DNA of 64,000 nt, taken from contig JAAYDY010000054.1 of the NCBI GenBank assembly GCA_012729015.1, positions 1 to 64,000 on the forward strand, in the 5' to 3' direction. The DNA is from Phycisphaerae bacterium (GTDB lineage Bacteria > Planctomycetota > Phycisphaerae > FEN-1346 > JAACEH01). The notes under the pieces are model-generated. The model did no database searches and had not been told where the DNA came from. It saw only the letters and a list, made by a program, of their open reading frames with translations. Positions 33,999 through 38,919 of this stretch are shown here, one piece after another; position 1 is the first letter of the stretch; each line of letters starts with the position of its first letter. Both the position numbers and the translations under genes were made by a program.

Positions 33999-36716
<2,718 letters not shown>

Positions 36717-36744
36717 TGCCGGCGACGAAGTGCATCCGGTACAG

Positions 36745-36786
36745 TTGACGCAACCAGCGGCGCTCGGTTATCATCGGGCGCCGCTG
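36745..36786 (+). promoter_or_regulatory. rsfS-argS promoter with a 9-bp inverted repeat around the -10 box
   Basis: TTGACG (36745-36750), 18 nt, TATCAT (36769-36774). CAGCGGCGC (36755-36763) and GCGCCGCTG (36778-36786) are perfect inverted copies flanking the -10 box, so a repressor or an RNA hairpin at the start of the transcript is possible. Confidence 0.5.
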
Positions 36787-36808
36787 ATGCTTATAAAGGA
36801 GACGTACC

Positions 36809-37207
36809 ATCGAGAGCAAGGAACTGGCAATTCGTATGGCGCGGCTGGCCGCCGAGAACCGGTGTCGCGACGTGGTGGTTCTGGACCTGCGTGAAATCAG
36901 CCCCGTGACGGACTTCTTCGTCGTGGCCACGGGCACCAGCCGTCGGCAGATGCAGACGGTGCTGGCCAAGGTCGCCGACGCGATCAAGGCCGAGCCGGAC
37001 GTGTCCACACCGTACGGCACCGAGGGGGTCGGCAGCGACCACTGGGCCCTGGTGGACATGGTGGACGTCATTGTCCACGTGTTCGCACCCGAGGCCCGCA
37101 GCTACTACGCCCTGGAGATGCTCTGGGGCGACTCGCCGCGCGTCGACTGGCAGGACGGGTGGCAGCCCCCTGCCGCCGTCAGGGCAGACCTGGAGCAGGC
37201 GCCATGA
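36809..37207 (+). CDS. rsfS: Ribosome silencing factor RsfS, apparent AUC start
   Basis: Binds L14 of the large subunit and blocks subunit joining under starvation. Core: RCRDVVVLDLREISPVTDF, FVVATGTSRRQMQTVLAKV, TEGVGSDHWALVDMVDVIV, and the C-terminal RSYYALEMLWGDSP. The first Met (36836) would cut off part of the conserved first helix. Reading upstream in frame gives ESKELAIRMARLAAENR, as in the family, and reaches ATC at 36809 exactly 7 nt after AAGGAG; an in-frame TAA follows at 36794. No ATG, GTG or TTG lies between. So AUC at 36809 is the likely start (132 aa), as AUU is for infC. Its stop overlaps argS (ATGA). Confidence 0.85.
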   Translation: MESKELAIRMARLAAENRCRDVVVLDLREISPVTDFFVVATGTSRRQMQTVLAKVADAIKAEPDVSTPYGTEGVGSDHWALVDMVDVIVHVFAPEARSYYALEMLWGDSPRVDWQDGWQPPAAVRADLEQAP

Positions 37208-38919
37208 ACCTTCAGCAGGAACTCACCCAACGCCTCGCGCGAGCCATCGCCGCCGCGTTTCCCGACGCCTCCGACGCCGAGCCCATGGTGACCGCTGCGC
37301 AGAATCCGCAATTCGGCGATTACCAGGCCAACTGCGCCATGGGCCTGAGCAAACGCCTGAAGAGCAACCCTCGCGCGATCGCCCAGAGCATCGTCGCCGC
37401 CCTGGACGCCGGCGACCTGATCGACGAGCCGACGATTGCCGGCCCCGGCTTCATCAACATGCGTCTGCGGCCGGAGTTTTTGGAGCGGCAGGCGGCTGCC
37501 GTCGGCGCCGACGAGCGGTTGGGGCTGCCCGTGGCCGAGACGCCGCGCACCGTCGTCGTGGACTTCAGTTCGCCGAACACCTGCAAGCCCATGCACATCG
37601 GCCACGTGCGGAGCATGGTCATCGGCGACGCCATCTGCCGGCTGTTGCGGCTGCTGGGCCATCGCGTCGTGGCCGACAACCACCTCGGCGACTGGGGCAC
37701 GCAGTTCGGCCTGCTGATCGTGGGCTTCCGGATGTTCGGCCACGAGGTGCCCGAGCGGGACGATCCCCTGCTGCGGCTCGTGGAGATCTACAAGCGGGCT
37801 CACGCCGCCGCCGAGGCCGACGAAACCGTCCGCGACCAGGCCCGGGCCGAGCTCGCCAGACTCCACGCCGGCGACCAGGAGAACTACCGTCAGTGGCAGC
37901 AATACTGCCGCTGGAGCATGGAGCACTTCAACCAGATTTACCGCCGCATGGACGTGCATTTCGACGAGACTCTCGGCGAGAGCTTCTACAACGACCTGCT
38001 GCCTGGCGTCGTGGACGAGTTAGCTGCCGCCGGCCTGGCCCGGCCGAGCGAGGGCGCGATGTGCGTCTTCTGGGACGATGACAGCCTGCCCCCGCTGCTG
38101 GTGCGCAAGAAGGACGGCGCGTTCCTCTACGCCACGACCGACCTGGCGACGTTGAAGTACCGCCGCGACCGCTGGCATCCCGACGAGATCGTGTACCTGA
38201 CCGATGCGAGGCAGCAACTGCATTTCCGCCAGATCTTCAGCGTGGCCGAGCGGTGGGGCGTGGCCGAAGGCATGCGGCTGCGGCACGTCTGGTTCGGCAC
38301 GATCCTGGGACCGGACGGCACCCCGCTGAAGACGCGTAGCGGCGACCTCGTGGAATTGGCCGACGTACTGGACGAGGCGGAGCGGCGAGCCGTGGAAGTC
38401 GTCCGTGAGAAGACTCCCGACCTGGACGACGCCGAGGCCGGCGAGATCGCCCGGGCCGTCGGCCTTGGCGCCATCAAGTACGCCGACCTGTCGCAGAACC
38501 GTCAGAGCGATTTCGTCTTCGACTGGGACAAGATGCTCTCGATGCAGGGCAACACGGCGCCGTACCTCCAGTACGCCTACGCCCGTATCCGAAGCATCTT
38601 CCGCAAAGGCGCCGAGTCGGGCTGCCGCCCGGGCGAGACGGGCGTGTCGGTGGCCGAGCCGGCCGAACGCGCCCTGGCGCTGAAGCTGCTCCAGTGGCCC
38701 GAGGCCGTCGCAGCAGCCGGCGACGACTATCGCATGAACCTCATCTGCAATTACCTCTACGAACTGAGCTCCGTCTTCACGAGCTTCTACGAGTCGTGCC
38801 CGGTGCTCAAGAGCGAGCCCGCGCAGCGCGACAGTCGCCTGCAACTGTGCGACCTGACGTCGCGCGTGCTGAAGACCGGCCTGGACGTCCTGGGCATCCA
38901 GGTGCTGGAACGCATGTGA
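37204..38919 (+). CDS. argS: Arginyl-tRNA synthetase
   Basis: Class I aminoacyl-tRNA synthetase. 571 aa: N-terminal additional domain (FGDYQANCAMGLSKRLK), catalytic core with the HIGH motif at 131-134 (FSSPNTCKPMHIGHVRS), DNHLGDWGTQFGLLIVG, LYATTDLATLKYR, and the C-terminal anticodon-binding DALR domain (APYLQYAYARIRSIFR). No canonical KMSKS; the segment LKTRSGDLVEL takes its place, as common in ArgRS. Overlaps rsfS by 4 nt. Confidence 0.97.
   Translation: MNLQQELTQRLARAIAAAFPDASDAEPMVTAAQNPQFGDYQANCAMGLSKRLKSNPRAIAQSIVAALDAGDLIDEPTIAGPGFINMRLRPEFLERQAAAVGADERLGLPVAETPRTVVVDFSSPNTCKPMHIGHVRSMVIGDAICRLLRLLGHRVVADNHLGDWGTQFGLLIVGFRMFGHEVPERDDPLLRLVEIYKRAHAAAEADETVRDQARAELARLHAGDQENYRQWQQYCRWSMEHFNQIYRRMDVHFDETLGESFYNDLLPGVVDELAAAGLARPSEGAMCVFWDDDSLPPLLVRKKDGAFLYATTDLATLKYRRDRWHPDEIVYLTDARQQLHFRQIFSVAERWGVAEGMRLRHVWFGTILGPDGTPLKTRSGDLVELADVLDEAERRAVEVVREKTPDLDDAEAGEIARAVGLGAIKYADLSQNRQSDFVFDWDKMLSMQGNTAPYLQYAYARIRSIFRKGAESGCRPGETGVSVAEPAERALALKLLQWPEAVAAAGDDYRMNLICNYLYELSSVFTSFYESCPVLKSEPAQRDSRLQLCDLTSRVLKTGLDVLGIQVLERM

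Follow-up and report, generated by a model that had tools for sequence, protein, structure and literature searches.

Near-cognate start codons recur in rsfS of Planctomycetota and may place the gene under start-codon proofreading by IF3

The gene for ribosomal silencing factor, rsfS, in the window (the whole 64,000-nucleotide stretch of Phycisphaerae DNA that was analysed) is predicted to begin at an AUC codon behind a Shine-Dalgarno sequence, and near-cognate codons recur at the equivalent place in its relatives. The start at AUC 36809 and its conservation are well supported, in the absence of protein or expression data. We put at about two in three the probability that rsfS, like infC, is kept at low output by IF3 start-codon proofreading, so that both anti-association factors would be under one control.

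Results

The rsfS start in the window

The window frame matches the RsfS family model PF02410 over profile positions 3-98 of 98, and also matches 13 distinct solved sequences, those of RsfS and its mitochondrial counterpart (Table 1). The preliminary description had proposed that the gene begins at AUC, that an in-frame TAA closes the frame to earlier starts, and that the conserved first helix is encoded 5′ of the first methionine. The observation was borne out: the TAA at 36794-36796 was read in frame, there is no ATG, GTG or TTG in the rsfS frame between this TAA and the conserved first helix, ATC 36809 stands 7 nt from AAGGAG, and the first in-frame ATG sits within the conserved helix (ELAIR-MARLAAENRC). 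With the ATC as residue 1, residue numbers nearly coincide with those of RsfS chains of known structure (query 12 facing chain 12 in 2o5a and 15 facing 15 in 2id1; further alignments begin at query 18 = chain 18 in 30qz and 11 = 10 in 9q40), and the predicted ATC-initiated protein would be close to ordinary N-terminal length, with the reservation that the chains compared may carry tags.

Table 1 Features of the rsfS region in the window
Feature	Position	Strand	Remarks
hppA, membrane H+-translocating pyrophosphatase, gene upstream of rsfS	33999..36716	+	Pfam PF03030, 9.8e-261
Putative sigma-70-like promoter, TTGACG-18-TATCAT	36745..36774	+	Consensus match only; 1 found vs 0.1 expected in shuffles
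14-bp hairpin (inverted repeat) between hppA and rsfS	36755..36786	+	z -2.85 for 36717-36850
In-frame TAA	36794..36796	+	Rules out any earlier start in the rsfS frame
Shine-Dalgarno AAGGAG	36796..36801	+	7 nt before ATC (aligned spacing 6)
rsfS, ribosomal silencing factor	36809..37207	+	132 codons plus TGA; Pfam PF02410, 3e-27
Predicted AUC start codon of rsfS	36809..36811	+	Frame, spacing, homologous ATT in G001
First in-frame ATG of rsfS	36836..36838	+	10th codon, within helix 1; rejected start; not conserved in G001
argS	37204..38919	+	Pfam arginyl-tRNA synthetase domains

An hppA-like protein is also encoded 5′ of rsfS in three other genomes (G001, G126 and G055; translations judged by eye). 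The start of argS overlaps the end of rsfS by ATGA (37204-37207) in the window, and G001 has an argS-like frame 3′ of rsfS with no overlap (judged by eye); given the overlap, a weak rsfS start in the window may also limit coupled translation of argS. The putative promoter would give a leader of approximately 25-30 nt before the ATC, with little room for anything besides the Shine-Dalgarno sequence. The hairpin lies 5′ of the Shine-Dalgarno sequence and overlaps the -10 region of the putative promoter, and would be intact in RNA only with read-through from hppA.

Nearest relatives of the window gene

The order of the window is represented by eight genomes in the collection, and its family (f1) has one further member, G001, from another genus and 58% identical. 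In the G001 gene the homologous codon is ATT, which follows GGAG at an aligned spacing of 6, as in the window, with a stop 12 codons 5′ of the ATT; ATG, GTG and TTG are absent from this upstream stop to the core and through the next 44 codons. Both genomes of the family therefore carry a near-cognate start, ATC in the window genome (G000) and ATT in G001. In the sister family of the same order (f2, five genomes read), the rsfS start, ATG or GTG, lies five or six codons nearer the 5′ end, so that f2 has no ATG at the place of the window ATC. The preliminary description had held that an ATG here in relatives would refute the AUC start; on alignment of the codon in relatives no ATG was found at this place, G001 having ATT and f2 starting further upstream.

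Survey of class and phylum

In the class survey an rsfS match was obtained in 279 of 298 genomes, and 158 distinct sequences (160 loci) were read, plus 15 more from family f7; in the phylum survey, the draw for which included some class members, a match was obtained in 188 of 199 genomes, and 89 distinct sequences (90 loci), all outside the class, were read. Both sets consist of best-scoring matches, and the phylum set omits some with very long upstream frames, so the proportions given here are not unbiased estimates.

No canonical start was found upstream of the core in 37 of 262 distinct planctomycete rsfS sequences, which fall in 20 families by family labels and include the single-contig genomes G381 and G363. 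Among the other 225, a canonical codon occurs somewhere upstream in 223 and the frame is cut by a contig end in two. Within the class, 9 of 158 sequences lack a canonical start from stop to core (ATC in G000, G021, G126 and G193; ATT in G001; CTG in G011, G013 and G201; G073 ambiguous), as do 27 of 89 outside it, with ATC, ATT, ATA or CTG, plus ACG in families f68 and f96. Elsewhere in the class and phylum, one of these five codons occupies the Shine-Dalgarno-aligned place in a number of families.

A one-base neighbour of AUG stands at Shine-Dalgarno distance in 34 of the 37 (ATC 12, ACG 9, ATA 6, ATT 4, CTG 3). The test, which scored CTG, ACG, ATA, ATC or ATT at an aligned spacing of 4-10 from the strongest Shine-Dalgarno sequence, compared this with 50 of 222 shifted downstream windows (binomial p 4e-19); the sequences are related, so this p value overstates their independence. 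A narrower test, in which the codon nearest a spacing of 6.5 was forced, placed the near-cognate at that position in 22 of 37 and at the following codon in 12 of 37. Spacing is short, at 4, in L136 (CTG) and long, at 10, in L016 (CTG). The three genes missed by the 4-10 test are L271 and L329, which have CTG and ATC, respectively, at a spacing of 6 from another Shine-Dalgarno run, and L108, for which there is no explanation.

The near-cognate start is thus recurrent without being universal, since 223 of 262 sequences have ATG, GTG or TTG upstream of the core. Many of these probably use that codon, among them f2, some f20 genes with TTG, and E. coli, also with TTG. Three loci with other labels (L034-L036) likewise offer a canonical start before the core begins. 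The contig of L034 is titled Candidatus Kuenenia stuttgartiensis, and its rsfS leader is the same as that of L043, from a genome placed in the class of the window; the record may be mislabelled. A further rsfS match (G359:C1012:2137-2427) contains an internal in-frame TAA.

In six genes (L016, L013 (f6), L020, L017 (f8), L136 (f22) and L011 (f10)) CTG GCN stands near the Shine-Dalgarno sequence, resembling the ATG GCC AAR start of other families, and CUG is apparently the start codon; a contig end truncates L013, and L017 and L011 also have TTG further upstream.

Families with a conserved near-cognate codon

Family f7 supplied 24 genomes with an rsfS match (two more sampled genomes had none). 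A near-cognate at an aligned spacing of 5-7 is present in 19 of the 24, namely ATC in 16 (G012, G021, G030, G037, G043, G049, G055, G085, G091, G097, G103, G114, G126, G150, G162 and G168), ATT in two (G120 and G144) and ATA in one (G108); four (G061, G067, G073 and G132) have no assigned codon and G156 is cut by a contig end. The exact arrangement GGAGG-N6-ATC/ATT occurs in 15 of the 24 genomes, in ten of them as GGAGGTG-N4. A canonical codon is present elsewhere in the frame of most f7 genes, so the claim for this family rests on the conserved block of Shine-Dalgarno sequence plus codon. G108 has a second, partial rsfS match (G108:C289:8947-9162), a duplicate or contaminant.

Genus g147 of family f20 has ATC (G193), ATT (G279), TTG (G282), and TTG or ATA (G231) at the rsfS place. 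At the rsfS start place of f68 (seven sequences: L254, L255, L262, L263, L266, L268 and L280) and f96 (two sequences: L251 and L269) ACG is invariant, and the codon after it is TTA in seven of the nine and ATA in two. We take the ACG to be the start, given its invariance at this place and its one-base difference from ATG; ATA at a spacing of 9-10 (L254, L280) or TTA is not excluded as the start. If this is correct, ACG would serve these families as a conserved and dedicated start codon, which would be very unusual in bacteria.

Comparison with infC, rbfA and hpf

Three control genes were read in 29 genomes picked for their rsfS (27 without a canonical start, plus G352 and G318) and in 30 picked by family membership, and the comparison is valid within those picked sets only. 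Partial second hits of infC (L219, L220), rbfA fragments (G156, G434) and weak second hits of rbfA, second copies of hpf, and genomes without a fetched hpf locus (G430, G482) were left out.

A canonical start is lacking in 28 of 54 infC loci, and in all 28 a near-cognate stands at the Shine-Dalgarno sequence (ATT 18, ATC 5, ACG 3, CTG 2). The window genome has ATC after GGAGG in infC, the sole canonical alternative being a GTG one codon before the core, and infC of G001 also has ATC, so that infC and rsfS share a start class in both genomes. No rbfA locus of the 51 read lacks a canonical start, and in 35 of the 51 the nearest start lacks a Shine-Dalgarno run of four; nor does any of the 30 loci of hpf, which encodes a ribosome-inactivating factor, lack one (ATG, GTG and TTG are used). 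Of the four genes compared, it is therefore infC and rsfS that show the near-cognate habit. The pair is not in agreement in every family: where rsfS has ATC or ATA (f48/f56), infC has ATG upstream in f48 and GTG or TTG upstream in f56, and in f20 genus g147 infC has GTG with ATC, ATT or TTG in rsfS.

At Shine-Dalgarno distance infC has ACG in L344 (G312), L362 (G373) and L367 (G406), which offer no canonical start before the core, and in L364 (G306) and L359 (G390), where the nearest canonical codon is a TTG 45 codons upstream. For infC of G120, the test picks a far-upstream CTG although ATC stands where relatives have ATT.

Discussion

Proposed control of rsfS by IF3

In the portions of the cited papers available, IF3 is described as rejecting initiation complexes unless their codon is AUG, GUG or UUG, and infC as controlling itself through its start codon, AUU in E. 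coli and AUC in Streptomyces (PMC5472188); AUA is given as the infC start in S. aureus (PMC13009471). RsfS is described as binding the 50S subunit and blocking joining, like IF3 on the 30S subunit, and in E. coli without RimM the two factors are stated to rise together and jointly block joining (PMC13246957, likewise seen in part).

In the mechanism that we propose, translation of rsfS would start at AUC 36809, positioned by AAGGAG and decoded by initiator tRNA. The AUC would be kept on purpose as a codon that, like AUU or AUC of infC, IF3 tends to reject, so RsfS would be made sparingly while IF3 is abundant, and in larger amounts once 30S subunits outrun the supply of free IF3. Because RsfS on the 50S subunit and IF3 on the 30S subunit both block subunit joining, one sensor would set both. 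We infer, without expression, ribosome-profiling or peptide data, that ribosomes start at this AUC, that in these bacteria IF3 discriminates against it, and that the purpose is coordination. The parallel with infC drawn in the preliminary description gains from the infC ATC in the window genome and from a habit found in infC and rsfS and not in rbfA or hpf; control of rsfS by IF3 stays inferred. The rsfS pattern is wider than had been proposed there, and IF3 control is plausible.

Alternatives to IF3 control

The main rival, which we think somewhat unlikely and do not dismiss, accepts the AUC start and makes of it a fixed brake without feedback: RsfS must be scarce, any weak codon (UUG, CUG, AUH or ACG) serves, and IF3 is no meaningful regulator. 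A weak codon alone could keep RsfS low, and the spectrum of weak rsfS codons does include TTG, in several f20 genomes and in E. coli. The occasional parting of the infC and rsfS habits (f48, f56 and f20 genus g147) also fits a fixed brake, for which pcnB, attenuated by a weak start with no known feedback, offers a precedent (cited in PMC1780047, of which part was available). Against it, the habit is common to infC and absent from the two other ribosome factors, and a clear Shine-Dalgarno sequence is retained, which would be surprising if the only need were for low output. Moreover, genes without a canonical start carry almost exclusively codons that differ from AUG by one base and are not among the accepted three. 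These are the IF3-sensitive codons, and UUG is far less sensitive to IF3 than they are.

The remaining alternatives deny the AUC start itself. Initiation at ATG 36836, without the first nine residues, would use the first canonical codon in frame and is the start given in the list of open reading frames; it is nonetheless very improbable, as this ATG has no Shine-Dalgarno sequence at the proper distance, cuts helix 1 and leaves conserved columns upstream of it (column 5 is Ala in 50 of 53 seeds). G001, moreover, offers no canonical start in the 44 codons after its core begins, and in 25 of the 37 genes that have no upstream start, a canonical codon is met only after more than eight codons of the core or is absent from the stretch read. 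A sequencing or assembly error giving ATC for ATG could be imagined in a draft genome of 122 contigs, and deserves still less credence: the ATT at the same place and spacing in a different genus, with no canonical start nearby, makes such an error very unlikely, and rsfS without a canonical start was found in 20 families, single-contig genomes among them. Least credible is translation from upstream in another frame, for instance from the ATG at 36787, followed by a frameshift, since that ATG precedes the Shine-Dalgarno sequence, G001 has no ATG in any frame in the 45 bases before its ATT, and unrelated leaders would each require a shift. The possibility that the protein is longer and the ATC merely encodes an Ile within it was rejected: in 37 genes a stop closes the frame and leaves no canonical start, and other families have CTG or ACG there.

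Known systems compared

IF3 autocontrol of infC, with AUU, AUC or AUA, is among the known systems closest to the proposed control of rsfS: in both genes a near-cognate start follows a good Shine-Dalgarno sequence, the product stops subunit joining, and the codon recurs in relatives, with infC of this type present in the window genome and in others surveyed. The two differ in that infC regulates its own product, whereas the regulator of rsfS would be the product of another gene, and in that control of infC is proven by experiment (PMC5472188 and PMC1780047, each available in part) and that of rsfS is not.

According to the accessible text of PMC5472188, IF3 also represses the non-canonical start of a gene that is not infC, sigR of Streptomyces, as is proposed for rsfS; unlike rsfS, sigR encodes a stress sigma factor, has a GTC codon, and its repression was shown by experiment. 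Conserved AUA or AUU starts with an extended Shine-Dalgarno sequence, resembling those of rsfS, are described for ccpN of S. aureus and B. subtilis and cvfC1 of S. aureus, with a reporter output of about 10-30% of that of AUG (PMC13009471, from the part at hand); unlike RsfS, the products, a transcriptional repressor and a small protein, respectively, are not ribosome factors. The same gene in E. coli (ybeB) has a weak UUG start (PMC10917681, seen in part; also read in the K-12 record), but UUG is one of the three accepted start codons. Apart from infC, few bacterial genes are known with an IF3-rejected start, and rsfS is not among them in the literature matches listed, which contain no report of an AUU, AUC, AUA or ACG start for rsfS; most subscription papers fall outside their coverage.

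Implications

An ORF caller limited to ATG, GTG and TTG cannot place the rsfS start in such genomes, and the open reading frame listed for the window is short by nine residues. A broader proposal, which we hold only tentatively and with the odds somewhat against it, is that infC and rsfS form a small translational regulon across much of Planctomycetota, both starting from IF3-rejected codons and both rising as free IF3 per 30S subunit falls, with ACG as the rsfS start in f68 and f96; by slowing 50S joining RsfS would give IF3 longer to reject the AUC, and so would restrain its own synthesis. If IF3 control of rsfS is true, one simple sensor would couple the amounts of the anti-association factors on the 30S and the 50S side, and the reason for the joint rise of IF3 and RsfS in growth arrest could be tested directly.
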